Under the pieces are notes generated by a model that saw only the letters and a program-made list of their open reading frames with translations, searched no databases and had not been told where the DNA came from. Shown in pieces: positions 1-12,696 of a DNA stretch of 20,677 nt. The DNA is from a virus. A program made the position numbers and the translations under genes. The first letter of the stretch is position 1; each line of letters begins with the position of its first letter. The stretch lies in IMG/VR virus record IMGVR_UViG_3300023174_006624, positions 1 to 20,677 of that record. One strand, given 5' to 3'.

Positions 1-712
1 TCTTGTGCCAGTGTGCTTTTGCTAATATTCCATTAGTGATAATTTCAATTTCAACATCTTTATTGTTTACATCTAAGCCACTGAGTAATTCTCTATAGAT
101 TAAACTAGCAAATGGATCACCGTCACCGCTGACACTAAACTTTAAAAATTGACCGTGATTTTCGATTAGCTTGGTAATATGTTTGACAATCATCATCTTT
201 AAATCATACGCAGGGCCTTCGTTAATGAATACAAATTCTTTGCGACAGCTAGGACATGTTAAATTACAACTACTATCAATTGCAAAATTAATCCAATTGA
301 TGGTGTCCGGTTTATGGTCTATCCTGCCACTTAGATCGTTACTAGCAATCAGCCCGCAGATGTTATTGTCACAATACTTATAACTGCCGTCTAGGATAGA
401 CCTTTGAATTTCCCTTGCTCGAGCAATGCGTGGGATATCATCTAAAGAATCGAATTCCCAAATTTTGCCTAAACTAATTGGCAACCATGCTTGGCATATA
501 CAAGGAAATACATCTCCATTACCGTCAATGGTTATGGTGTTAAACGGATGATAGCAATAGCGGCCTTTTAAATTTAAGTCTTTTTCAAACGTGCCGCCAC
601 GCTGACCCCAGACACCGCGGAATTCTGGCAGGATCTGCTCTTCGCTTATAATGTTTGCATTTTTATATGCATTATTTGCGACATTGACTAGTGTGATTAT
701 TTTCTTACTCAA
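1..712 (-). CDS. Radical SAM protein with N-terminal auxiliary Fe-S-like region (partial, runs off left edge)
   Basis: The minus-strand frame is open from a TTG codon at 712 to the window edge, giving 237 residues. The radical SAM core is recognisable from CNLTCPSC (C149, C153, C156), the classical CxxxCxxC that binds a 4Fe-4S cluster and S-adenosylmethionine. SGDGDP at about 195-200 sits where the family has its GGEP-like SAM-binding loop. Upstream are further cysteines (C53, C71, C73, C114, C119), with GDVFPCIC resembling SPASM/twitch-type auxiliary cluster regions, here placed N-terminally. TTG at 712 overlaps the polymerase stop by eight bases, so translation is probably coupled to the polymerase gene. 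The substrate is unknown. The gene at 10206-11321 has the same architecture. The family is clear; the TTG start is an inference, because the frame has no better initiator. Confidence 0.8.
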   Translation of the reverse strand, partial: MSKKIITLVNVANNAYKNANIISEEQILPEFRGVWGQRGGTFEKDLNLKGRYCYHPFNTITIDGNGDVFPCICQAWLPISLGKIWEFDSLDDIPRIARAREIQRSILDGSYKYCDNNICGLIASNDLSGRIDHKPDTINWINFAIDSSCNLTCPSCRKEFVFINEGPAYDLKMMIVKHITKLIENHGQFLKFSVSGDGDPFASLIYRELLSGLDVNNKDVEIEIITNGILAKAHWHK

Positions 713-3386
713 AACTAAAAAAGCTATCAAATGTTGTGTTGATATTTGTGTTCTCGGTAATGTTCCAACTGAGCACACCTAATAAGTTTTCTACCTTTTG
801 ATCCACAATGCCAGATTCCATTAAATCTTGATCGAATGGCAAATCTTTAAACCAGCGTGGAATGTGTGTTTCGTCTGTTGGATAAGCTATGCTAGTATAA
901 CCCAATGGGTTAACCTTCATCTTACAAACGATAACCTTCATGCCGTCGACGATTTGCATGGCATAATTATCGCCATGCATCTTGCGTAACTTGTTCCAGT
1001 TCATGGCAGCACGAACGTGCCCAGGCATGTTGGCTTTGCCCAATCTATCTTCTTCCGCAGTATATTTGGTCAAGTTATTCACACGCTTGGGTGTACCCTT
1101 TTCCCATGCAGGCCGCTGTTGGAACAATATTTTAAATTCTTTAATTTTCTCGATAATCTCTTCTCGACCTGTACCTGTCAGCACATCATTAAGAATGCCG
1201 CTCAAGAAGTCTTGCACTACCTTGGGAGTATCACTACGTTTCAAATCCAACCCCATGGCCTTTACTTTGCCCGGCTTGCCTCCTGTGTCCAATCGCTTGC
1301 CTTCTTTGTCATAGATAAGAACAGCATAACGTTTCTTTTTAATAAACAAACCTTTGCTGGCAACTAGTTCCCTGCCACCTTTGATAATAGAACCGTTAGC
1401 TCTCGGGCAATGGCAAGCACGTTCCATGAACGCAGGAAATGACTCATTGACTTGGTCTGCGATACTGTCATATAGTTGCACACAAATATCTTTATTCCAT
1501 TCCATACGTCCAGCAGCCACATCTTCTTTGACTGCGGGCCATGCACTAAAATATACAGAGTCAGTATCACCGTAGATAACAGCTTCCCCCACATGATCAT
1601 ATGTACCAAAAATACATTCGTTAACAAAACTATCCATGTGCTTGGCAATAGTGCGTCCTGTCAAGGTAGTTGACTGTCCGATCCTGTGGTCAAAGAAACG
1701 ACAACCAGGATTAAGAATAGCACCATACAAACTGTTCAAGTTAATTTTCTTGACCAACTGACGTTTGTCCCAGTACTCTTGATCCTCTTTAGTGGTAGCT
1801 TCTTTAAGTTTGGCCTGCATTTCTTTACGTTCAGCATACCAACGTTCTAGCAAACCCGGAATAATACCTTTACGTTCATGAGTAAAGATAGTGCCGTTCG
1901 CACTGATGGTCCAGGGTTTGTTACTGTCAAACACAATACGCCAAACATCAGCAGCACTGCAAACGTCACTGGAGCCATCCACTTCCCAGTCGACGGTTAT
2001 TTCTGTACCGGACTCCCCGGCCATAACAGCTTCGTATTCGAGACTGCCAAACAAACCTTCCCAAGCACCAGCAAAGCTCATACCCGATGACATTCTGTCG
2101 CCGATTAGCTTATCCGTCATTATGGGTCTTAGCTGTCCAATAATTGTTTCTGGGCCCATGTTAAGGGCCCGAATAGCCGAGGGGTAGAGCGAGTTAATGT
2201 CAATGGCTCCGATGTATTCATGGACACCCTTTTTGGGATGAGCAACATAGGCACCTGCTGCTTGTGTTTCGCTGGGCTCATCCTCGTTTGTGTGGTCAAT
2301 TCTTGCTTTTCGGTTAGGTACGACCAATCCTTGACTGTGTGCTTCATTGATAATTGCCTGTTCTGTAGTTGCTACCGCGCCCATTGTTGTCTGCAATAAC
2401 ACCGTGTTATCGTGAGCAATGGTATTTGCCAAATCCAAGAAACGCAACTTCTTGTCTAACTTGGCTAGCAAGCGAGTGTCTTGTCTGTTGTATTCCAGGA
2501 ACTTGGGAAAATCTTTATTGTACAATTGATCCAATGTGCCTTCGTAGGCAGTCTTGCGTTCATCTAATTCGTATTCGCCGATGGCATCCAAACTGTAACT
2601 ATGGCGTTCTTCGTAGGTGTACTTTCGATATAGTTGCATGTAGTCCATATGCACACGACCAATCAAGTCAAATGTCGTGTTGGTGGCACCAAAACGATCA
2701 AATTCGCGTTGTTTAGGAAATTGTCCCCATAAGCATAAACGTCGAGTGTCATCCTTACTCAGCACACGAGTAATACGACCGATTGTGTAAGGAATATCAT
2801 AGCCCTCGCTGTTCCATCCGCTGAGAATGTCTGCTTCGTCAATTAGATTCAGGAATGTGTCCAGCATATCTTCTTCCCTATCAAAGATATAACAGTCCTC
2901 AAATTTGGCACAAATTTCTTCGGCAGTTTCCCAACTCATGCTCTTGGGTGGAATTGCCAATGTAACTAACTTGTCTAACCAGTCCAAATATACAGATATA
3001 GCAGTGATATTATTAAACGGATCAGTGGTTGGGGCAAATCCTCGTTCTGGATCAAAGTTTGCCTCAATGTCGAAAAATGCAGTATGCAGTTTGGGAGGTT
3101 CAAAACCCAAGTAATTTTCTTCAAGGCATCTGAACACAGGTTTAAAATCGCTTTCCCACACTCGTTTGTTGTTCTGTAGCCTAAGTTCTTTTTGGAATTC
3201 TTTATGACTCCTGGTGGTAAATTTAGTTACAGGTGTGCCGTAAATGGTTGAATGTTTACCCCTTGGGTCATCATAATAAAATGTGTAGTTAACCGGATAT
3301 TCCTGGTATACCCGTTGACCGTTTACACGTTCCACTACGTGTATTCGATCCTTCTGTTTGTCGTAAAGTGCGTCGATGTAACTAAT
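705..3386 (-). CDS. 43: T4 gp43-like family B replicative DNA polymerase (proposed ATT start)
   Basis: This is the phage replicative DNA polymerase with 3'-5' proofreading. With the ATT start at 3386 it has 893 residues; T4 gp43 has 898. Exonuclease motifs are FFDIEANFD (D106, E108), the NSEGYD segment (D197) and YNRQD (D303). Polymerase motif A is DINSLYPS (D396), motif B is KKINLNSLYG (about 546-555), and motif C is YGDTDS (D607, D609). KKKRY follows. The C-terminus, FDSFFSFE, resembles the aromatic clamp-binding tail of T4 gp43. The first conventional initiator is a GTG at 3335, which would discard 17 plausible N-terminal residues (starting SYIDALYDKQ) and leave no good ribosome site. ATT lies 8 bases after GAGGG. 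A near-consensus promoter lies upstream. The stop overlaps the downstream radical SAM gene. Function is very secure; the exact start less so. Confidence 0.96.
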   Translation of the reverse strand: MSYIDALYDKQKDRIHVVERVNGQRVYQEYPVNYTFYYDDPRGKHSTIYGTPVTKFTTRSHKEFQKELRLQNNKRVWESDFKPVFRCLEENYLGFEPPKLHTAFFDIEANFDPERGFAPTTDPFNNITAISVYLDWLDKLVTLAIPPKSMSWETAEEICAKFEDCYIFDREEDMLDTFLNLIDEADILSGWNSEGYDIPYTIGRITRVLSKDDTRRLCLWGQFPKQREFDRFGATNTTFDLIGRVHMDYMQLYRKYTYEERHSYSLDAIGEYELDERKTAYEGTLDQLYNKDFPKFLEYNRQDTRLLAKLDKKLRFLDLANTIAHDNTVLLQTTMGAVATTEQAIINEAHSQGLVVPNRKARIDHTNEDEPSETQAAGAYVAHPKKGVHEYIGAIDINSLYPSAIRALNMGPETIIGQLRPIMTDKLIGDRMSSGMSFAGAWEGLFGSLEYEAVMAGESGTEITVDWEVDGSSDVCSAADVWRIVFDSNKPWTISANGTIFTHERKGIIPGLLERWYAERKEMQAKLKEATTKEDQEYWDKRQLVKKINLNSLYGAILNPGCRFFDHRIGQSTTLTGRTIAKHMDSFVNECIFGTYDHVGEAVIYGDTDSVYFSAWPAVKEDVAAGRMEWNKDICVQLYDSIADQVNESFPAFMERACHCPRANGSIIKGGRELVASKGLFIKKKRYAVLIYDKEGKRLDTGGKPGKVKAMGLDLKRSDTPKVVQDFLSGILNDVLTGTGREEIIEKIKEFKILFQQRPAWEKGTPKRVNNLTKYTAEEDRLGKANMPGHVRAAMNWNKLRKMHGDNYAMQIVDGMKVIVCKMKVNPLGYTSIAYPTDETHIPRWFKDLPFDQDLMESGIVDQKVENLLGVLSWNITENTNINTTFDSFFSFE

Positions 3387-3394
3387 TTTAAAAA

Positions 3395-3399
3395 CCCTC
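3395..3399 (-). promoter_or_regulatory. Ribosome binding site that supports the ATT start of the polymerase
   Basis: On the minus strand GAGGG is followed by eight bases and then ATT (3386-3384). The spacing is normal for a Shine-Dalgarno site. There is no ATG, GTG or TTG at this distance, so the site argues that ATT initiates translation. A sequence error changing ATG to ATT cannot be excluded. Confidence 0.6.
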
Positions 3400-3425
3400 T
3401 TTTTTAATAAATATTTTTGCAGTCA

Positions 3426-3432
3426 CTAAATA
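3426..3432 (+). promoter_or_regulatory. Late-type promoter motif CTAAATA upstream of the di-iron protein gene
   Basis: CTAAATA on the plus strand is close to the T4 late consensus TATAAATA and to the motif reported for T4-like cyanophage late genes. It lies 42 bases before the ATG at 3475, inside the region transcribed early from the opposite strand. No clear Shine-Dalgarno sequence is visible before the gene. A seven-base motif alone is weak; the position and the lack of any other signal support it. Confidence 0.45.
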
Positions 3433-3446
3433 CTTATTAGCAGTGT

Positions 3447-3475
3447 ATTATATAACATAAAAAAGCAAAAGTCAA
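3447..3475 (-). promoter_or_regulatory. Sigma70-like early promoter for DNA polymerase
   Basis: Read on the minus strand: TTGACT (3475-3470), a 17-base spacer, then TATAAT (3452-3447). This is 11 of 12 matches to the bacterial consensus with ideal spacing. Transcription would begin near 3440 and leave a leader of about 54 bases before the ATT start. The -35 box overlaps the start codon of the divergent gene at 3475. The hexamers and spacing are identical to those at 10142-10170. Confidence 0.82.
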
Positions 3476-4314
3476 TGATTTCATTAGAAGTATATAAATT
3501 CCTCGAAGCCAATCGTTGGCACAGTCATGAAATTCCCTGGGACCAGTTCGATGGTTCCATAACCGATATCCAAGCTCGCTGGATGCGTAACAACTGTTTG
3601 AGCGAATTCAGCACAGCACCAGGCACTTATGCATTCATGAGAGACTTTCAAGACGATCCCGATTTCTATAGTTTCCTGGGAGTTTGGTTATTCGAAGAAC
3701 AAAAACATTTTTTGACGCAGTACGAATATTTACAACGATTTAGACCGGATCTTGTTCCTACAAAAAAACAAGTACAAGATATTAACTTTACCTTTCAACC
3801 TGCTCAGAATAGATATTCTATTATATTCTTGCACCACTGCGAAGAATTGGCAGTTATGAGTTTTTATGTCAATGCTGCCAAAGACGTAACTGAACCGGTC
3901 TTTAAGAAAATTTTATTATTGCTGGCTGCAGACGAATCTAGACATAGTAAGGTATTCTTCGACTTCTGTGCCAAGTACCTTGAAGAAGATTACTACAAAG
4001 CTGCCGACGGCATCAGTAAAATGGCCTTGTTCTTGACCAGTAACAGAAAGTCCAAGCACCCTGTGGTCAATTCCCTTGCTAACGACAGTGATAGACCCAC
4101 TGTACAGTCTAGAAAACCTGAACCAGATTTGCTGTCAGTCACGTGGAGCAAGAGTGTACAAGAAATAGATCCTGCAATTCTAAACAATAAGTTTTTAAAC
4201 TCATTGAGTAAGCTGTTGGGCAGAGAGTTTGCATGTTCTAAAGATATTCTTGAATTCAGACGAGAATTACGAGCTCAACATCCTGACGAGGCCGACAGTG
4301 TCGATTGCGGTTAG
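3475..4314 (+). CDS. Ferritin-like di-iron protein, acyl-ACP desaturase-like
   Basis: This 279-residue protein is the only convincing plus-strand gene. It has the paired carboxylate-histidine motifs of ferritin-fold di-iron oxidases: FEEQKH (E75, H78), CEEL (E123/E124), and ADESRH (E154, H157). Spacing and context resemble soluble acyl-ACP desaturases, whose motifs read EENRH, QERAT and DEKRH; the third helix of this protein (AADESRH) is especially close. A first-helix iron ligand could not be assigned with confidence. The C-terminal 80 residues (about 190-279) are polar and have no recognised fold. If active it would use O2 to oxidise a substrate, perhaps an acyl chain; N-oxygenases of the AurF type and other ferritin-like enzymes are alternatives. 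It appears to be a late gene (CTAAATA upstream) and its 3' end overlaps the convergent gene by 48 bases. Confidence 0.72.
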   Translation: MISLEVYKFLEANRWHSHEIPWDQFDGSITDIQARWMRNNCLSEFSTAPGTYAFMRDFQDDPDFYSFLGVWLFEEQKHFLTQYEYLQRFRPDLVPTKKQVQDINFTFQPAQNRYSIIFLHHCEELAVMSFYVNAAKDVTEPVFKKILLLLAADESRHSKVFFDFCAKYLEEDYYKAADGISKMALFLTSNRKSKHPVVNSLANDSDRPTVQSRKPEPDLLSVTWSKSVQEIDPAILNNKFLNSLSKLLGREFACSKDILEFRRELRAQHPDEADSVDCG

Positions 4315-4557
4315 CAAGATATAGTTAGCCAGCATACCAAAGCTCTTCCTAGTGTAAGCAGCCCATGCATACATAGCACAGCCACTAATCCAGATAGGGT
4401 ATAGTACAATAAGAGGAGGATTAGGCACGGTGACTGCCATGATGATTGAGCAACCAACACTAACAGCCCAAGCGAGCAACTCAATAGTAAAACGTATTGG
4501 ATTGGTTCTATAATCATCCCTGATCCATTTGAAGATGTCAGCTACAATATTGTTCAA
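4267..4557 (-). CDS. Small three-helix membrane protein, unknown function
   Basis: The protein has 96 residues. After a polar, amphipathic N-terminus (1-22) there are three hydrophobic segments at about 23-43, 48-68 and 73-93, so it is most likely an inner-membrane protein. The ATG overlaps the stop of the dsbA-like gene by four bases (ATGA), which implies translational coupling. Its last 48 bases lie under the end of the convergent plus-strand gene. Another frame over the same stretch is open for 68 codons but lacks this coupling. I do not recognise the family. A role in lysis timing, superinfection exclusion or transport would be guesswork. Confidence 0.75.
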   Translation of the reverse strand: MNNIVADIFKWIRDDYRTNPIRFTIELLAWAVSVGCSIIMAVTVPNPPLIVLYPIWISGCAMYAWAAYTRKSFGMLANYILLTAIDTVGLVRMLSS

Positions 4558-4868: not shown

Positions 4869-5937
4869 GTGATTGCATGTGAGGATTTAACCATTTGACA
4901 GGTGGATGGTTTGATTCATCAAAGCTCACGCCCATGTGTGGCCAATCAAAATGCAATCTTGACATCAATAATAGATGTTTATCTCTTGCCTCTGACATTG
5001 CATCTTTGTTGATTCCTGGTGCGGTGATAATTTCTTTAATATAAGGAGACCAAAATTCAGGAATATCTAACAGCGTCCACTTATAATCTGTGCCTTTGCC
5101 GTCAGCAGCGTACAATGTGTCAACACATGGATTAATATTGACACATGCAGGGTCTCGCTCTTCGAATCCATATTTAATAACAATGTTTTTCTCAAAGAAT
5201 CCAGGCGGAATCTCCAGAGGAGGAGCATAGTCTGGACCTATGCCCACATGCCCGTATCCATCGAAATGTCTAAATTGTTCTTTAGTGGGCACAATCATGA
5301 GGTTGTTAGGCAGTACTAAACTATTCCAATGTTCAGTTCTAAAGATAAACATATCAGGATTTTTGACTTGATCCAGATACCAGTCGAAAAATTCTTTCCT
5401 CATGACCCTTAATGCATCGTTGTTGCCTGTGTTATATCTGACTAGACCTTCAGATAAGTATTCTCCGTCAAAATGACAACATGCTCGAATACTTTCCGGA
5501 TAATGGCTAGTCATAAAAGTTGAATCGATACGATCACCATAACCCACTCTCTTAATAGCATCACCCATGATCAAAATATTAGAGTCCATGAAAATATGAT
5601 CTTCATTACCAGCAGGAAAAATTATATCGTCACCGAGGTCATTCATTTCGGTTTGAATCTCCCTCCATTGTGCAATATTGTTGCATCTATACCAATGCAA
5701 ACTTAATTTTTCAGCTGGGAAGATAGAGCGGAGCCAGTGTTCCATTTCTTCCTGTTGATGTGCATGCCCGTCAGCCATTTCTAAATTAAAAATGAATTTA
5801 TTGATCAGTGGAATCAACGGTGCAAAACTAGCAAAACTGTATCTTGCTATATCAAATCGATTATCATTTCGCAAGTGATATCGCGGCTGTGGGTTAGGAC
5901 GTATGTCGCTTATTTTACAATTAAACCAAACTATCAT
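4852..5937 (-). CDS. Putative glycosyltransferase-like protein of surface-glycan loci
   Basis: The protein has 361 residues. No textbook domain is obvious. The stretch GDDIIFPAGNEDHIF (D103, D104) resembles the acidic motif plus aromatic residues of GT-A type glycosyltransferases. The N-terminus reads like a nucleotide-sugar-binding Rossmann start (MIVWFNCKISDIR). I recall similar proteins in bacterial polysaccharide loci, but this cannot be confirmed here. It overlaps the upstream GatZ-like gene by 17 bases and is the last gene of the sugar cassette, where a transferase that uses the activated sugar would make sense. It could also be another nucleotide-sugar enzyme. The 3' end carries the dsbA promoter. 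Confidence 0.5.
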   Translation of the reverse strand: MIVWFNCKISDIRPNPQPRYHLRNDNRFDIARYSFASFAPLIPLINKFIFNLEMADGHAHQQEEMEHWLRSIFPAEKLSLHWYRCNNIAQWREIQTEMNDLGDDIIFPAGNEDHIFMDSNILIMGDAIKRVGYGDRIDSTFMTSHYPESIRACCHFDGEYLSEGLVRYNTGNNDALRVMRKEFFDWYLDQVKNPDMFIFRTEHWNSLVLPNNLMIVPTKEQFRHFDGYGHVGIGPDYAPPLEIPPGFFEKNIVIKYGFEERDPACVNINPCVDTLYAADGKGTDYKWTLLDIPEFWSPYIKEIITAPGINKDAMSEARDKHLLLMSRLHFDWPHMGVSFDESNHPPVKWLNPHMQSLEFTE

Positions 5938-6919
5938 ATAAATTCTCGTAATATAAATCTAAACAGGCTGTGATTGCCCGGTGTACTTCTTTGTCTACAT
6001 CACAATGATGTGTGAGACTGTCTTCCAACTTAGCGTAAGCTGTACTATTATAACAATAATGACCTGCAATTGCAATTTTTAATCTGTCATTGTTATCTGC
6101 AGGGTCAATCATCCACTTGTGCCATTTGCCGCTTTCCAACACAGTTCTTTTAAATGGTTCTGCATCGACGTTGTGTTTTTCTGCCAAGTCAATAATGGTT
6201 TTGGTCTGGATGACGCCAAGCTGGGGAGCAATATTACATGCGTGGACGCCGGCTTGGTGCCTTAGTTTAATTTGATCGCCTGTTAGGTAATCGGCATTAT
6301 GTTCCTTCAACTTGACCCCCGCTGTAGTTGCATAGCCCACTAGTCGTTTAACCATGGGAACATCGAAGCTGCCCACTTGCCTGTCCTCCATGGTCAAACT
6401 GCCTGTTTGTGCAACCACAAACTGCATATTGGGAAATTGGCTAGCGAACTTAACATCCTGCTGATATTTTTTTACACCAGCAGCCACGCCTACGTTTTCT
6501 TCAGTTCCAAATTCAAACTTGATATTGGGATTTAGGTTTAAACAAAAATTAAATAACTCATCTGCTACATGGTAAGCATCTTCGCAACGGCTAGTGTCGA
6601 TGTGTATTAAATCAAATTCGTTTTCGATATCGCCAGCAATAGTCTTTTTAGTTGCTTCTATAGCAGCCCGTTGACTCAATGATTTTTCGACATCTAAAAA
6701 GTATGGTCCGCAATGGTCTCTGCACACCATCAAATATTCGCTACGCAACGGCTTTAATTGTTCGGCTAGTTGCTGTGTGTTCATAACATAACCGCTGGAG
6801 GCGTCAACTTGGTTTCGACTGGCAATAAACATTAACGGTCTTTGATTTGCAGCCGCATATCGTGCTAGGATATCGTTGATCATCAGGCTCATAGGCCCGA
6901 ATCCTAGTTTAAAATTCAT
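5921..6919 (-). CDS. GatZ/KbaZ-like class II tagatose-bisphosphate aldolase family protein
   Basis: The protein has 332 residues and appears to be a TIM barrel of the GatZ/KbaZ type (D-tagatose-1,6-bisphosphate aldolase, non-catalytic subunit family). Matching segments are ASRNQVDASSGYV (33-45), CRDHCGPY (66-73, where the family has GGDHLGP), EFGTEENVG (136-144), HNADYLTGDQ (207-216) and GVHACNIAPQLG (224-235). GatZ proteins are about 420 residues, so this is a shortened branch. In enterobacteria GatZ supports GatY; no GatY partner is seen, so this branch probably acts alone on a different sugar phosphate. It overlaps the HAD phosphatase gene by 11 bases. An aldolase followed by a sugar-acid phosphatase suggests synthesis of a phosphorylated sugar that is then dephosphorylated. 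The substrate is unknown. Confidence 0.72.
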   Translation of the reverse strand: MNFKLGFGPMSLMINDILARYAAANQRPLMFIASRNQVDASSGYVMNTQQLAEQLKPLRSEYLMVCRDHCGPYFLDVEKSLSQRAAIEATKKTIAGDIENEFDLIHIDTSRCEDAYHVADELFNFCLNLNPNIKFEFGTEENVGVAAGVKKYQQDVKFASQFPNMQFVVAQTGSLTMEDRQVGSFDVPMVKRLVGYATTAGVKLKEHNADYLTGDQIKLRHQAGVHACNIAPQLGVIQTKTIIDLAEKHNVDAEPFKRTVLESGKWHKWMIDPADNNDRLKIAIAGHYCYNSTAYAKLEDSLTHHCDVDKEVHRAITACLDLYYENLYDSLV

Positions 6920-7388
6920 AAGGAATTCCCATTTGTTTCATGATAGCGATGCTAGCATCCAAGTATGCTCCTTCTCCTCCCCTGCTGGGAGTAACATAAT
7001 CTGCCGCACTGCGAGCTTCTATACGTGCCTGTGCTGGCGCAATACCAAACTTTGCCGCCTTAATAATTTTAGCATCATGTATGCCATCTCCCATATAGGC
7101 AAGATTATCAAAACCGTAAGATTCGACAAATTGATATCTGGTTGCCTCGGGTACATAGTGTAGTTCACATTTCATATGGTCTTGTACTCGAGTTTTAATA
7201 ATATCCCAACCGTGTTTATCGGCACTGATAAAAATAAGTTTAACATGGCCACGCAGTAATTTAACACCATCGTGGTCGTAATTGCCAAATGCCTTGAAAG
7301 GTTTCAGTCCTCCAGAATCCCAATAGATATTGCCGTCGTTTAAGCAACCGTCGATGTCTGAAATAAAACACTTAAACATCGAATACAT
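6909..7388 (-). CDS. HAD-family phosphatase, KdsC-like (sugar-acid phosphate phosphatase)
   Basis: The protein has 159 residues. The HAD nucleophile motif is DIDGCLNDGN (D11 nucleophile, D13 acid), ISADK supplies motif II, and GDGIHDAKI is motif IV. SRGGEGAYLDA near the C-terminus matches the R-GG-GA signature of KdsC and related nonulosonate phosphatases, which lack a cap domain and act as tetramers. KdsC hydrolyses KDO 8-phosphate; relatives act on sialic-acid-type 9-phosphates. The start at 7388 overlaps the upstream gene by 17 bases; a second ATG at 7379 would also fit. It probably dephosphorylates the product made by the neighbouring aldolase-family protein. The specific substrate is inference. 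Confidence 0.82.
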   Translation of the reverse strand: MYSMFKCFISDIDGCLNDGNIYWDSGGLKPFKAFGNYDHDGVKLLRGHVKLIFISADKHGWDIIKTRVQDHMKCELHYVPEATRYQFVESYGFDNLAYMGDGIHDAKIIKAAKFGIAPAQARIEARSAADYVTPSRGGEGAYLDASIAIMKQMGIPYEF

Positions 7389-8118
7389 TCCTTGCTATTA
7401 ATTTTAATACGTCCTCATCGGGATCTTGCTCTGTGTATAATTTAAACTGATACCTAAATTGTGCAATGTAAATGTCGGCACCAGTTATTACACTTTTTCC
7501 GGATTGTTTTGCTTGCTTGATTAACTGTGTATTACCTATTACACAATCCACAATCAAGTTGGCATTCGGATCTTCAACAGGCGATTCATTGCTACCCATT
7601 CCGATACTGGTAGTATTAATCAAGATATCACATTTATCGCGTCTAATTTCCCATGTATTTTTACGCCTACTAGCTACTTGTACTGTTGGTACTTGACTGC
7701 AAAGTTCCTGGATATTGTCTGCCATGGCTCCGTCGCCTAGGATGATTATTTTTTTATCTTTAATTTGTTCACTGAGCAAATCTTTTAATCCCATATAATC
7801 GCAATTATAACCCGTCAAAAATTTATCTTTATTAATCACAGTGTTAATTGGCATGCCATATCCAGCCCAACTCATACCTATGTGTTTTTCTACTTGTCGT
7901 TTGAACGGCATAGAAATGCTAGCACCTGCACAGTGTTCGCGCACCAGTTTCATATCTGCCGCCAAATCAATACATTCACAAGCAACATATTCTGCATTGA
8001 TGTTATGATGCTTGAACAAGGTATTATAAAACTGTTCACCTGTTTTACCAGGTTTGGCTGAAAGGCTTACAAATAAATTTTCCGCGTGTTGCCATTCAAT
8101 TGCTTGTTGTAACTTCAT
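7372..8118 (-). CDS. Shikimate dehydrogenase (AroE)-like oxidoreductase
   Basis: Starting at the ATG at 8118 the protein has 248 residues (AroE is about 270). SLS at 18-20 matches the substrate-binding SxS, SMPFK contains the catalytic lysine (K73), INTV holds N92, and GYNCDYMG supplies the catalytic aspartate (D107). ILGDGAMAD (126-134) is the glycine-rich NADP loop, with an aspartate in place of one expected small residue. INTTSIGM matches the INATS-GM motif. An ATG at 8169 is possible but would overlap the upstream gene by 74 bases; 8118 gives a 23-base overlap. Since it sits in a sugar cassette rather than with aromatic biosynthesis genes, its substrate is probably a cyclic polyol or sugar acid; genuine shikimate activity is the alternative. 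Confidence 0.78.
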   Translation of the reverse strand: MKLQQAIEWQHAENLFVSLSAKPGKTGEQFYNTLFKHHNINAEYVACECIDLAADMKLVREHCAGASISMPFKRQVEKHIGMSWAGYGMPINTVINKDKFLTGYNCDYMGLKDLLSEQIKDKKIIILGDGAMADNIQELCSQVPTVQVASRRKNTWEIRRDKCDILINTTSIGMGSNESPVEDPNANLIVDCVIGNTQLIKQAKQSGKSVITGADIYIAQFRYQFKLYTEQDPDEDVLKLIARNVFDV

Positions 8119-9640
8119 TAAAAAATCTTTCGAAGTGTAGCTGAGCCAATGCAAACAGGTATTTGTCAAACGGTGCTTCGTGCAACGGACTCATATTCAA
8201 ATAGATAATGGGAACTAGTAATCGAACCTTGTTCCAATCCAACTTTGATTTTGTACAAAATGCAGCCAACTGCTCTACATAATCGTTAGACGAATTGATA
8301 CTGCAATCGTTTAATGTTGCAATTTCTGCATTTTCGTTATATTCTAACTTGTCTGCTTTAACTGCTTGGTAGTCTAATAGAATTCCGCCCATCATCTTGG
8401 CTAAGTCATAATACACATCACCATAACTATCGCCACCGAAGTCTGTGCGCCAATCGATGGCAGTAAACGTATCAGTGTGCGGACTATAAATTACGTTTTC
8501 AAATTGGAAGTCACCGTGTATAAATGCCCATTCGGTAGTATTACATAACCAATCCCAGTCAATCTTGTCAAGATATCGATCAATTGATTCAACAGTTTGG
8601 CCGTTGACTGTGCAGGGTTCGCTCCAGTCGCTGTACTTAACACGGAATTGTTGTAAACGATCCTGTGTCTTTTTGTGATAGAAATCTCTGCAAATATTTT
8701 CTGTATTGGGAAACCATTTGCGTTTCCATAATTCTTTGTCTGCCCATTGCAATAACTTGCTCATGAGAGTGGGATTCAATTGACTGTATATAATATCACC
8801 GTCTACGTAATTGTAAACTAAAAATTGACCACTGCGTCTAATACCGGTAGGCATACATGCAGGATTTAATAAAGCCCTGTTGGTCTTTTTGTCAGTCAAC
8901 GTACTATCTGTGGTAAACTTAACAATCTTTTTATTGTCGCTGTAAAATAATTCATTGGGCTTGAGGAAACTGACTTCTTTAAGGTCTGCACTTAATTCAA
9001 TCCATTTGTCGTAAGTGCCAAAATCCTTCCAGTCTCTCACAGTGTGAGCACGTAGTTCTAAATTATCAGTCAATCCCTGATATGCTTCTTTGGCATTCAC
9101 TGCTTTTAAATTATCAACATATTGCATATCTTTGCAATACATTAAACCAATGAATGCATCAACTGCTTGCTTGCTTGGTTCTTTGTTTTTGATTTCTGTA
9201 ATGGTTTCGCCGTCACGTCGAACCCAACAGTAATCTTGTGCAATGTCGCTATCGACTGGATGTACACCGATCCAGTTGTGATCCATTTTGTCTTTATAAT
9301 CAAAGTCGAATAAGGTATCACAACTGAGCCACATAAACGGCCCATTGATATGTTTAGCACATTGTTGGATGGTAGTAGCAGGCCCCGTGCTTCCTTCAGC
9401 ATAGTCTGGAATGTCCACGTAAACAATTTGTTTGTCCGTGTGTACAGCACTGACATAGTCTTTAACTTGCTGACCCATATGACCACAAGCAATAACAAAC
9501 TTAGTGCCCAAATCAAATTTTTCCATAATGTGACTAATAAGTGGTTTATTGTCGTAAGGAATTAGGCCCTTATTGACCATGCGGCTAAATGGGCCCATGC
9601 GGCGACCATAACCTGCGGCAAGAATTAAAACTGTTAACAT
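8096..9640 (-). CDS. Sugar nucleotidyltransferase fused to an aminoglycoside-phosphotransferase-like kinase
   Basis: The 514-residue protein has two enzyme halves. Residues 1 to about 220 form a nucleotidyltransferase of the GT-A fold: LILAAGYGRRMG (5-16), NKGLIPYDNKPL (23-34), and WLSCDTL (104-110) with the metal-binding aspartate. Residues about 230-514 form an APH/choline-kinase-like domain: FIHGDFQFENV (H375, D377, N382) is the catalytic loop and AIDWR (D396) the metal-binding motif. Such a pair can phosphorylate a sugar or alcohol and then load it onto a nucleotide, as with LicA/LicC (choline) or AmgK/MurU (cell-wall sugars). The ATG follows the cupin stop by three bases. The fused form and the cassette point to activation of an unusual sugar or polyol; CDP, GDP or UDP chemistry cannot be told from sequence. 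Confidence 0.82.
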   Translation of the reverse strand: MLTVLILAAGYGRRMGPFSRMVNKGLIPYDNKPLISHIMEKFDLGTKFVIACGHMGQQVKDYVSAVHTDKQIVYVDIPDYAEGSTGPATTIQQCAKHINGPFMWLSCDTLFDFDYKDKMDHNWIGVHPVDSDIAQDYCWVRRDGETITEIKNKEPSKQAVDAFIGLMYCKDMQYVDNLKAVNAKEAYQGLTDNLELRAHTVRDWKDFGTYDKWIELSADLKEVSFLKPNELFYSDNKKIVKFTTDSTLTDKKTNRALLNPACMPTGIRRSGQFLVYNYVDGDIIYSQLNPTLMSKLLQWADKELWKRKWFPNTENICRDFYHKKTQDRLQQFRVKYSDWSEPCTVNGQTVESIDRYLDKIDWDWLCNTTEWAFIHGDFQFENVIYSPHTDTFTAIDWRTDFGGDSYGDVYYDLAKMMGGILLDYQAVKADKLEYNENAEIATLNDCSINSSNDYVEQLAAFCTKSKLDWNKVRLLVPIIYLNMSPLHEAPFDKYLFALAQLHFERFFNEVTTSN

Positions 9641-9643
9641 ATT

Positions 9644-10111
9644 TTATTTGTGTTCTGAATCGATGCGTCCGTGTGTACGGTTGGCATCGTCTTGTAATCT
9701 TATTACGTCGTCCAAATGGCAAGTACTGGCTTCGACAAAACGCAATTGGGTGTCTGCAATCATGCGATGAATAGTCCCCGGTTCAATAGTCATTACACTA
9801 CCTGGCCCGTAGATTTCTGTGTGTAAGCCCAAGATAAAATTATCCATTTCCTCCTGACTATAACCGCCTGCGTTATACCACTCACAGTCGAAATACTCTT
9901 TACTGTAGACAATGCGCCCGGAACCCTCGAGGATATAATTGGTCTCTGCTTTGTACTGATGTACTTGTAAACTAGTTTGATGTCCTTGATTAAGAACAAT
10001 CTCTTTGAGCACATATGTATGTTCGTTGGACCCTTGTTGAATCCATTTTTCTTGCCCCCAGGGCTTGGATACGGTTTTGGTTTGTGTTAATGTTTGATGT
10101 ATGATACTCAT
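9644..10111 (-). CDS. Cupin protein, mannose-6-phosphate isomerase-like
   Basis: The 155-residue single cupin resembles the C-terminal isomerase part of type II mannose-6-phosphate isomerase/GDP-mannose pyrophosphorylase. Signs are KPWGQEKW (16-23), the metal-binding SLQVHQYKAE (H51, E56), the EGSGRIVY turn (62-69), and PGTIHR (H115). The tail, HLDDVIRLQDD (132-142), is typical of sugar cupins next to nucleotidyltransferases in surface-polysaccharide loci. It is the first gene of the cassette, about 24 bases downstream of the predicted transcription start. No clear Shine-Dalgarno sequence is visible before the ATG. Isomerisation or epimerisation of a sugar phosphate is the likely role; a non-catalytic sensor is less likely. 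Confidence 0.8.
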   Translation of the reverse strand: MSIIHQTLTQTKTVSKPWGQEKWIQQGSNEHTYVLKEIVLNQGHQTSLQVHQYKAETNYILEGSGRIVYSKEYFDCEWYNAGGYSQEEMDNFILGLHTEIYGPGSVMTIEPGTIHRMIADTQLRFVEASTCHLDDVIRLQDDANRTHGRIDSEHK

Positions 10112-10205
10112 ATTAAATTGAAATATAAAAGCTCACTTTGGATTATACAGTAGCGAATTGCATAAGTCAAGGCAGCAGCCGCCCACCCGGTCCTAAGGCC
10201 AAGGT
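10112..10205. other. Intergenic region with promoter and GC-rich segment
   Basis: This 94-base stretch separates the radical SAM gene from the cupin gene. It holds the TTGACT/TATAAT promoter and a GC-rich part (about 10171-10200). On the minus strand GGCGG and CTGCC can form a five-base stem with one G-U pair, but no T-run follows, so I do not call a terminator. Confidence 0.6.
10142..10170 (-). promoter_or_regulatory. Near-consensus sigma70 promoter for the sugar cassette
   Basis: Minus strand: TTGACT (10170-10165), 17-base spacer, TATAAT (10147-10142). Eleven of twelve positions match the bacterial consensus. Transcription would begin near 10135, upstream of the cupin gene at 10111. It lies in the longest non-coding stretch of the window (10112-10205). 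This implies early expression of the six-gene cassette by host RNA polymerase. Confidence 0.85.
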
Positions 10206-11321
10206 CTAATTTTGTAGTAATGTATTTAACTCAGGCCACAATTCAACAAACGGTTTGTTTGGAGGCATAAATTTTTCCATTTTGTTGGTCCAAATTAAAA
10301 AATCCTTGTCTTTGTTTGGTTGTTCTGTGTTGGCGATTAAACTGGCTTTGATGCCATCTACCACTGGATCATTGACAGCCAATCGTTCTATTTCTTGTAC
10401 AGCTCTGGTTATTAGTGATTTTTTATGGCCAAATGTGGTAAAACTGTCAGTGGCAAATCCATAAGCAGAATCTATTTTGGGCAGTGCCAATTGCCAATTT
10501 ACTCTAAAATTACCACTAGAGGCATATTCATAGTATTCTTCTAAGTTAATGCTATTCCATATAGTATAGACTGGATGAAAGGTCACATGATTGGCACCAA
10601 AGTCATCACATAATCTTTTTACATTGTCCGTGAATACTGACCATAGTCCACCCTGTCTAACATATTCAAACCTATCACCCACATTATCAAAACTCAAATT
10701 CCAATACACATTGGGGAACGATTTTAGTTTTTCGTAGATTTTGTTATTGTCCAGTAGTATACTGAGATTGGTTAGTATATCTATTTTGGTATTCTTATTG
10801 ATAATATCCAACAATCGAATATTATGTTTTTGCATCAGAGGTTCGCCGCCCAACAAATACACACATTCAAGTGTCTCTTTGTTTTCCTCTATTTCTTCAA
10901 ACAACGATGCTGTATAATCTCTATTAACTGATTCGATGGGCAATGAATGTAGTCTGCGCCATTCGCTGCTGTCGTGCGTGTTGCAATATCTGCAAGATAG
11001 ATTGCAAACATTGCTCCAACGAATGTCTGCCAGTTTTAGTTGTCTTTTTTTGGGACTGGAAAATTGATCATTGAATGCACTGCGCTGACTGCTGCCCGGC
11101 GCTATTTGTTCTATACGATCACAGCCACTGCAATAACTGTGACTTTGATTTGTTCTAATAGCAGTTTGAATTTCTATGAATTTTTGTTTGGCAAAAATGT
11201 CTTTGATGGGCTCATTACGTATATTGCCAATTGGCTCAGAACCACTACAGCACAACCCAACTGCGCCTTGTACACTGACAAACAAGCCAGTGTCTACGGC
11301 ACTACAATAATTAGAATCCAT
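10206..11321 (-). CDS. Radical SAM protein with N-terminal SPASM/twitch-like cysteines
   Basis: The protein has 371 residues. CNLSCRYC (C106, C110, C113) is the radical SAM 4Fe-4S motif and LLGGEPLM supplies the GGE loop that holds SAM. Before the core, C6, C24/C25, C64 and C67 (CSGC) look like ligands of an auxiliary cluster, an arrangement usually found C-terminally in SPASM/twitch enzymes that modify peptides or carbohydrates. The C-terminal 120 residues have no clear motif. The ATG follows the Dps stop by three bases, so the two are probably co-transcribed. The substrate is unknown; peptide or protein modification is one option, sugar modification another. The partial gene at the left edge shares the architecture, so the phage carries at least two such enzymes. 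Confidence 0.85.
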   Translation of the reverse strand: MDSNYCSAVDTGLFVSVQGAVGLCCSGSEPIGNIRNEPIKDIFAKQKFIEIQTAIRTNQSHSYCSGCDRIEQIAPGSSQRSAFNDQFSSPKKRQLKLADIRWSNVCNLSCRYCNTHDSSEWRRLHSLPIESVNRDYTASLFEEIEENKETLECVYLLGGEPLMQKHNIRLLDIINKNTKIDILTNLSILLDNNKIYEKLKSFPNVYWNLSFDNVGDRFEYVRQGGLWSVFTDNVKRLCDDFGANHVTFHPVYTIWNSINLEEYYEYASSGNFRVNWQLALPKIDSAYGFATDSFTTFGHKKSLITRAVQEIERLAVNDPVVDGIKASLIANTEQPNKDKDFLIWTNKMEKFMPPNKPFVELWPELNTLLQN

Positions 11322-11324
11322 ACT

Positions 11325-11759
11325 TTATTTTAATGTTGAACGAAGCATCCATGCATGTTTATCGTAAGCATCCATACGTTCTGCCAGGAAGTTGCTAAAA
11401 TCATGTTTAGCGTTTGCTTCAGCTAAATCATATACTAACTTTAACACTTTATAAGTTTTTTCGCTGTCTGCTAACAATTCAGCTAGCATTTGCATTGCAG
11501 GGGGTACTTGTAACTCGTCTTCAATTTGACTAAGCATACTGAATCTTGTAAAACTTCCTGGAGTATACCCTCCCAGTTTACGAATATTTTCTGCAAACGG
11601 ATCAATAGCGCCGTACACTTCTTTGTAGATAGTCTTGAATAATTTGTGGTATTGTGGAAAGTTTGCACCTTCCACATTCCAGTGAAAGTAGTGTGCTTTC
11701 AAATAATAATTAAATTCTGTTGCAAATGCAATCTTGGCTGCTTTGATTAATTCATCCAT
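11325..11759 (-). CDS. dps: Dps-family ferritin-like protein
   Basis: The 144-residue protein has the Dps signature YFHWNVEGANFPQYHKLF (24-41) and DPFAENIRKLGG (53-64). The ferroxidase residues of E. coli Dps (H51, H63, D78, E82) have exact counterparts at H26, H38, D53 and E57, with identical spacing of 12, 15 and 4. It should therefore assemble into a dodecamer that oxidises and stores iron using peroxide. The N-terminus lacks the lysine-rich DNA-binding tail of E. coli Dps, so iron and peroxide detoxification is likelier than DNA compaction. A good ribosome site (AAAGGAAAG) and a late-type motif lie upstream. Whether it acts in the cell or is packaged in virions is not visible. Confidence 0.9.
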   Translation of the reverse strand: MDELIKAAKIAFATEFNYYLKAHYFHWNVEGANFPQYHKLFKTIYKEVYGAIDPFAENIRKLGGYTPGSFTRFSMLSQIEDELQVPPAMQMLAELLADSEKTYKVLKLVYDLAEANAKHDFSNFLAERMDAYDKHAWMLRSTLK

Positions 11760-11783
11760 TTTTCTTTCCTTTGGGCTTTGTTT

Positions 11784-11791
11784 TATTTATT
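11784..11791 (-). promoter_or_regulatory. Late-type promoter motif upstream of dps
   Basis: The minus strand reads AATAAATA, one mismatch from the T4 late consensus TATAAATA. It ends 24 bases before the dps ATG and is followed by AAAGGAAAG. It overlaps the stop codon of the small ORF at 11787-11909. No -35 box is present, as expected for a late promoter. Confidence 0.5.
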
Positions 11792-11909
11792 TGACTATGC
11801 TGCCAACCGGACTGAGATTATTGTCGGGTCCAATAGTGGTAGTAGGGGCACTGAACGCGGCTAAGTTGTAACCTTCAGTTTTGGGTCTCTTCAATTCTTT
11901 TAATTTCAT
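11787..11909 (-). CDS. Small ORF, 40 residues, unknown
   Basis: An ATG at 11909, inside the last codons of the upstream oxygenase gene, opens a 40-codon frame that fills the otherwise unexplained gap before dps. The product has a basic start (MKLKELKRPK) and a Thr/Pro/Asn-rich remainder (FSAPTTTIGPDNNLSP). It overlaps the oxygenase gene by 35 bases, like many neighbouring gene pairs here. The ribosome site is weak (AAAG). The frame does not continue another gene. I do not recognise the product; it may be a small structural or regulatory peptide, or chance. Confidence 0.45.
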   Translation of the reverse strand: MKLKELKRPKTEGYNLAAFSAPTTTIGPDNNLSPVGSIVK

Positions 11910-12696
11910 AGTCTTTAAAATAATCAAATTCAGGATTGCCTATATGATCTCTAAAAGTTCCGTCCCCGAGTATCCACGGTCCTCGATACTTCTTTACAGC
12001 AGATTCTAACATTTGATTAAGTTTTAAATTTATAGGTTGATCATTGGGATGATTTAGGTAAGCGTTCATCCATACATGATATCTATCCTCGTCACTGTTG
12101 TTCTCGACAATATGAAAATGCCAAGGATTTAAATACCATAATTCTCCTTCGCCAAAGTGTGTGGTATGCCATTCTTTGTCTGCAAATGCAGATACTTTAG
12201 CAATAACTTTGGGATTGGTGATAACTGGAATGTGTAGGACTATTTCTGTACATCTTGGAACAATGTCGATGAAATAATGTCGATGAAGCTTAACTGTACC
12301 GCCTGCAGGCAATTTGCTGATTCTGCAACTTGCCGGCATTTCGATAATACTGTTTATAGTTTCTGTGGTAACCGGACAGGCTTTGCTTGATTCCTGTAAT
12401 GTAAATTCGGGATAATAGCCGTTGTTAGTTTTGATATAATCTGAAACTTTTTTAATTAAGGTTTCGCTGGTATCATTGAACAGATAAAATTCATTTTCGT
12501 ATATAGGGCTGAGAGTTAGCCCCATATGGCCATTGTCTTGTAATTTTTTACCCACACTTTCTTGTACAAAAGGTTGATACCTTACTAGATCTTTTTGTGC
12601 TGTGATTTCTGCTTTGAGGTCGGCAAAATTTTCAACTGTGCCCAATTTAAGAAAAGGCACTTGTTTAAGTATACTATAGAGTTTTGTGTGATGCAT
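11875..12696 (-). CDS. Aspartyl/asparaginyl beta-hydroxylase-like Fe(II)/2-oxoglutarate oxygenase
   Basis: The protein has 273 residues. The C-terminal half has the double-stranded beta-helix pattern of the aspartyl/asparaginyl hydroxylase family: SCRISKLPAGGTVKLHRHYF (123-142, with H138 and H140 as iron-ligand candidates), EIVLHIPVITNP (151-162), GELWYLNPWHFHIVENNS (184-201, second histidine among H193/H195), and DRYHVWMNAYL (R205, likely 2-oxoglutarate contact). The N-terminal 100 residues have no recognised domain. It follows the large modular protein gene with one base between stop and ATG, so it is probably part of the same late transcript. It could hydroxylate a protein or amino acid side chain, perhaps in virion proteins made from the same mRNA; that is inference. 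Confidence 0.75.
   Translation of the reverse strand: MHHTKLYSILKQVPFLKLGTVENFADLKAEITAQKDLVRYQPFVQESVGKKLQDNGHMGLTLSPIYENEFYLFNDTSETLIKKVSDYIKTNNGYYPEFTLQESSKACPVTTETINSIIEMPASCRISKLPAGGTVKLHRHYFIDIVPRCTEIVLHIPVITNPKVIAKVSAFADKEWHTTHFGEGELWYLNPWHFHIVENNSDEDRYHVWMNAYLNHPNDQPINLKLNQMLESAVKKYRGPWILGDGTFRDHIGNPEFDYFKDYEIKRIEETQN

Follow-up and report, generated by a model that had tools for sequence, protein, structure and literature searches.

Comparative analysis points to an AUU start codon on a phage DNA polymerase gene and to recurrent AUH starts in its family

The window, a 20,677-nt stretch of viral DNA (IMG/VR record IMGVR_UViG_3300023174_006624), carries on its minus strand a gene for a family B DNA polymerase, here called polB (Table 1). 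Its product matches Pfam DNA_pol_B (4.3e-39) and DNA_pol_B_exo1 (2e-17), and the best solved relatives in the PDB are RB69 gp43 chains (E about 1e-63). The exonuclease and polymerase domains of T4 gp43-like family B enzymes are both present, as are the DxE, DxxSLYPS and YGDTDS signatures, found in the window as FFDIEA, DINSLYPS and YGDTDS. The promoter-like sequence ahead of the gene would start the polB RNA at about 3440 and give a leader of about 54 nt, which folds no better than shuffled sequences (z 0.15). This promoter is overlapped by the start of the divergent desaturase-like gene. In the closest relative of the window, locus L107 on another contig, the divergent gene and the promoter region are found in the same layout, with TTGACT kept and TATAAT reading TACAAT. 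Since the desaturase-like gene is present in L107 and a search of L001 gave no DNA match to it, the gene was probably gained together with a new polB leader. For a phage fragment, the window has many genes of metabolic type at positions 5921-12696, coding for a nucleotidyltransferase, a shikimate dehydrogenase-like protein, a HAD hydrolase, a radical SAM/SPASM protein, a cupin, a ferritin and an Asp/Asn hydroxylase.

Table 1. Features of the polB locus, in coordinates of the window
Feature	Position	Strand	Basis
Family B (T4 gp43-like) DNA polymerase, 893 aa from ATT	705..3386	-	Pfam, RB69 gp43 chains, motifs
GTG, first canonical in-frame codon, codon 18 counted from ATT; rejected as start	3333..3335	-	Sequence
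ATT, inferred translation start codon of polB	3384..3386	-	Start-column alignment, L107, codon scans
Shine-Dalgarno-like GAGGG, 8 nt before ATT	3395..3399	-	Sequence
In-frame TGA that ends the polB frame on the 5' side of ATT, immediately before CTG 3422	3423..3425	-	Sequence
Sigma-70-like promoter, TTGACT-17 nt-TATAAT	3447..3475	-	11/12 consensus matches; consensus match only
Divergent ferritin-like/acyl-ACP-desaturase-like gene, 279 aa	3475..4314	+	Pfam Rubrerythrin 1.7e-5, FA_desaturase_2 3.9e-5
Small membrane-protein gene, separated from polB by the desaturase-like gene	4267-4557	-	

ATT, ATC and ATA are very rare, weak start codons. The first-pass annotation had tentatively placed the start of polB at one of them, ATT 3386, 8 nt after GAGGG, and had noted that the frame holds no ATG, GTG or TTG ahead of the GTG at 3335, that a start at ATT yields 893 residues, and that it puts exonuclease residues at D106 and E108. 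All of this held on re-reading of the DNA. The frame is open from a CTG at 3422 to 705 and begins CTG CAA AAA TAT TTA TTA AAA AAG AGG GTT TTT AAA ATT AGT TAC ATC, with 12 sense codons ahead of ATT; in the other two frames, stop codons lie 4 and 20 nt upstream of it. T4-length gp43 chains in the PDB have 898 residues, and FFDIEA begins at residue 104 of the window polymerase.

We compared the start codon with that of related phages. In an alignment with 80 IMG/VR relatives of 74-87% identity, 72 have ATG at this codon, 6 TTG, 1 GTG and 1 ATC, and the ATT of the window falls exactly in this ATG/TTG/GTG column. Of ten cultured relatives, Phosso, Atu_ph07 and SCTP-2 carry ATG in this column, and in the other seven (Vibrio 2.275.O, RaK2, phiKp_21, XaC1, GAP32, PA5oct and Paride) ATG lies one codon later. 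The record of Vibrio 2.275.O annotates its polB start further upstream, and that of Agrobacterium phage Atu_ph07 (L249, MF403008.1) splits polB into two CDS, at 601-2298 and 2317-3570 in locus coordinates. In six loci (L020, L022, L023, L024, L035 and L040), a TATAAT-like box stands 5-8 nt before the polB ATG, as for a leaderless mRNA.

Two scans for an Ile codon in the start column followed by SY[IV]DAL[FY]D returned 46 stretches, 45 of them polB loci and one (L109) unrelated. The polB loci come from about 37 metagenomes, as counted from the metagenome ids in contig names. In 45/45 scored loci with such an AUH codon (AU followed by a base other than G), the window included, a Shine-Dalgarno sequence lies 5-8 nt before the Ile codon. 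Several loci have two or three consecutive Ile codons (as in GGAG AATT ATT ATA), which makes the exact codon ambiguous there; it is unambiguous in the window. An in-frame canonical codon occurs upstream of the Ile start in only three loci of these scans: in L084 (same contig as L050) and L105 it is a GTG that precedes the Shine-Dalgarno sequence, and in L107 a TTG one nucleotide after AAGGA. By sequence comparison, then, alignment, Shine-Dalgarno spacing and codon scans together put an AUH codon at the true N-terminus.

Other codons were sought in the start column in the same way. Searching for CTG or GTG yielded 38 loci with GTG and none with CTG, and a search for ACG, AAG or AGG was empty, both using AGY serine codons only. 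When any NTN codon was allowed, the 80 loci read among the matches listed comprised 61 ATG, 19 TTG and no AUH. The pattern used in the codon scans prescribes the next eight residues, and the scans are a large sample, not a census. Since only NTG or AUH was found, all non-canonical departures in the start column are in the third base; judged by these scans, position 1 of polB accepts NTG or AUH and nothing else, which is the behaviour expected of a start codon. Most of the 38 GTG-start loci (L299-L336) have near-identical leaders (GGAAGGAC...TATA(A/G)TCT directly before GTG).

It is highly improbable that the N-terminus is instead supplied from upstream, by frameshifting or by another near-cognate initiation codon. 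The 12 in-frame sense codons before ATT in the window would permit this; however, in-frame stops lie only 15 nt upstream of the Ile codon in several clades, those of L110 and L115 among them, stops in all three frames occur within 60 nt in 25/45 AUH loci, and an internal position 1 would allow codons other than the NTG and AUH found. In the ATT clade L110-L124, the entire upstream frame is taa AAG GAG TTT CAA ATT, and there is therefore no other plausible start. Somewhat less probable still is a start at GTG 3335 with a product of 876 residues. This GTG is the first canonical in-frame codon and has an AAGGA upstream, though 13 nt away, but a start there would drop 17 conserved residues, and the relatives begin 17 codons earlier. 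Relatives and AUH loci preserve the protein sequence of codons 2-17 while differing at many silent positions, and a GTG at codon 18 occurs in only 3/45 AUH loci; on these two grounds we rejected the GTG. Residues 2-9 sat in the search pattern, so their invariance is partly by construction in the scanned set, in which later residues were free to vary; the 80 IMG/VR relatives were chosen independently of that pattern. Least probable of all is a sequencing or assembly error for ATG: the start region of the window is known from a single record, a search for a second copy on another contig finding none, but L107 has ATT at 80% nucleotide identity and AUH stands in other loci from many metagenomes.

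The AUH codon is retained over considerable divergence. The polB genes of the window and L107, which both start with ATT, share 80% DNA and 92% protein identity and differ at 48% of fourfold sites. A clade of 12 rows is ATA throughout despite up to 60% fourfold difference; a second clade, of seven rows, is all ATT, and a third, of four rows, is mixed ATC/ATT. On a polB tree (FastTree, 209 polymerases, start residue excluded), we count at least 13 switches between AUH and NTG, on the starred branches, and most AUH lineages are dispersed toward the tips. As read from this tree, NTG in the start column has been replaced by AUU, AUC or AUA many times and then kept. The proposed start of the polymerase at ATT thus has strong comparative support from the start column, retention across near-saturated silent sites, Shine-Dalgarno spacing, closed upstream frames and codon scans alike.

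AUH might have been a habit of the whole phage. Homologs were used to place the starts of further ORFs at these loci, within a few kb of polB and for families with at least four homologs. By this measure AUH stood at the inferred start of 31 ORFs other than polB. In the hits of L229, L158, L200 and L018, ATG directly precedes the AUH codon, and most of the remaining ones, judged by reading the list with no filter applied, resemble frames overlapping other genes. We saw no convincing AUH start in these flanking genes, and a whole-phage habit was rejected. A 348-aa ORF on the minus strand of L245 (reverse-complement offset 3629) has ACG where most of its 11 homologs start canonically.

We propose that initiator tRNA(fMet) recognizes AUU 3386 by two of the three codon-anticodon pairs, with the GAGGG site helping initiation, so that the polymerase would still begin with fMet. 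The third-base mismatch would lower the efficiency of initiation and expose it to rejection by host IF3, and polymerase output per mRNA would thereby be held low. IF3 disfavours weak third-base pairs, AUU/CAU included (PMC10158994), and in reporters of three S. aureus genes AUU or AUA starts gave about 10% of AUG, with ccpN reaching up to 30% in rich medium (PMC13009471). The suggestion of the first-pass annotation that the codon may limit polymerase output or make it sensitive to IF3 fits this behaviour; low polymerase output per mRNA is inferred by analogy with such measurements. The good Shine-Dalgarno sequences near AUH could partly offset the weak codon. A low polymerase level would have precedent, because T4 gp43 limits polymerase synthesis by binding its own leader (PMC3014915). 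We consider the account as a whole, from an AUU start read by tRNA(fMet) through weak initiation and low output to recurrent replacement of NTG by AUH in the family, quite likely to be correct. The part drawn directly from sequence comparison comprises the position of the start, its recurrence and retention, the third-base restriction and the absence of a convincing case in flanking genes.

Partners encoded by the phage itself were also considered. The 18 phage records examined, possibly fragments, yielded no IF3 gene, and a phage IF3 as partner of the AUH start was rejected. Three AUH phages have CAT tRNAs with an initiator-type 1-72 mismatch, but initiator-like tRNAs with a CAU anticodon also occur in 6/8 control regions from ATG/TTG phages. 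They are therefore a group trait and do not explain AUH; a phage initiator tRNA that reads AUH was rejected, as all carry the same CAU anticodon. Such tRNAs were seen in L284 (4562-4636), L285 (c6607-6682) and L286 (8139-8212), and also in L287, L288, L289, L290, L291 and L293; they stand in clusters of up to 39 tRNAs. A search of GTDB genomes for relatives, as a clue to the host, gave none.

Why AUH is kept is a separate question, on which two readings appear equally possible to us, each with odds somewhat against it. In the first, AUH is used as a start and has drifted in without regulation, being tolerated, not selected, as little polymerase is needed and the Shine-Dalgarno sequence is adequate. 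The position of AUH lineages mostly near the tips, and their absence from the 80 loci read among the matches listed in the NTN scan, which makes them a small minority, are consistent with drift; clades that keep AUH across near-saturated silent sites, and the lack of a convincing parallel in neighbouring genes, argue against it. In the second, AUH would be selected as a switch sensitive to IF3 or growth state, coupling polymerase synthesis to host translation by analogy with infC autoregulation. Both infC, which itself starts at ATT or ATC, and Streptomyces sigR, which starts at GTC, are established cases of a non-canonical start repressed by IF3 (PMC5472188), and the efficiency of the ccpN AUA depends on the medium (PMC13009471). 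Against a switch, a phage IF3 gene was found in none of the 18 records and nothing ties IF3 level to polymerase demand. Active regulation of the polB start by IF3 or host state is speculative.

In many relatives a covarying hairpin with an 8-nt loop GCYNNAAR lies immediately ahead of the polB Shine-Dalgarno sequence or overlaps it (e.g., L110, L108, L017, L137 and L132). Selection of loci by the loop motif alone gave 95 distinct sequences; the three pairs nearest the loop form in 95-96% of them, versus 43-72% after shuffling. In 37 hairpins, hand-picked for diversity after viewing, all six pairs change on both sides, with 59 such cells versus 22 in shuffles, a control that leaves relatedness in. 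The hairpin had no Rfam match (eight sources). It resembles the T4 gp43 operator in position and is a candidate polymerase operator. It is present in 21/45 AUH loci; the window and L107 lack it, and no T4-type operator hairpin was found there. AUH was associated with absence of the hairpin in 4.0 independent pairs, against 0.3 in the opposite direction, a trend that is not significant (p about 0.125), and hairpin loss as the cause of AUH was not accepted on this test. The trend points, though not significantly, toward interchangeable devices that throttle polB: a hairpin operator at the Shine-Dalgarno sequence or, after loss or replacement of that leader (in the window by the divergent gene and its promoter region), an AUH start that would tie polymerase dosage to host IF3 or translation state. 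We regard this idea as tentative and rather unlikely.

On the comparative evidence, then, a phage replicative polymerase has a real AUU start, and AUH recurs as a habit in a family of uncultured large phages. To our knowledge, the documented AUH starts belong to a few cellular genes, infC being the best documented, and our search of the open-access literature found no report of AUU or AUA starts of phage polymerases. A core replication gene with at least a dozen switches between NTG and AUH inside one phage family would be a natural replicated experiment on start-codon discrimination. Gene callers restricted to ATG, GTG and TTG truncate this core phage gene. If the codon is IF3-sensitive, it would tie phage replication to the translation state of the host.

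The nearest known parallel is infC (AUU in E. coli, AUA in S. aureus, ATC in Streptomyces), which like polB has a third-base-mismatched AUH behind a Shine-Dalgarno sequence, conserved within lineages. The product of infC is IF3 itself, which closes a feedback loop, whereas polB encodes the phage replicase and the 18 phage records gave no phage IF3. In E. coli pcnB (AUU; as cited in PMC13009471) and in S. aureus cvfC1 (AUU), ccpN and citZ (both AUA), AUH limits the output of a gene other than infC, as proposed for polB; these are cellular genes and polB is a phage gene. The GTC start of Streptomyces sigR belongs to the same third-base mismatch class and was likewise missed by gene finders (PMC5472188). 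There the effect of IF3 was shown experimentally, whereas the ATH start of polB is known from sequence. Finally, the T4/RB69 gp43 operator (PMC3014915) resembles the arrangement in many polB relatives, with a replicative family B phage polymerase and a hairpin by the Shine-Dalgarno sequence; translation initiation of gp43 is limited, as proposed for polB. In T4 the polymerase acts as repressor together with a hairpin, whereas polB of the window, which has no such hairpin, has an AUU start.
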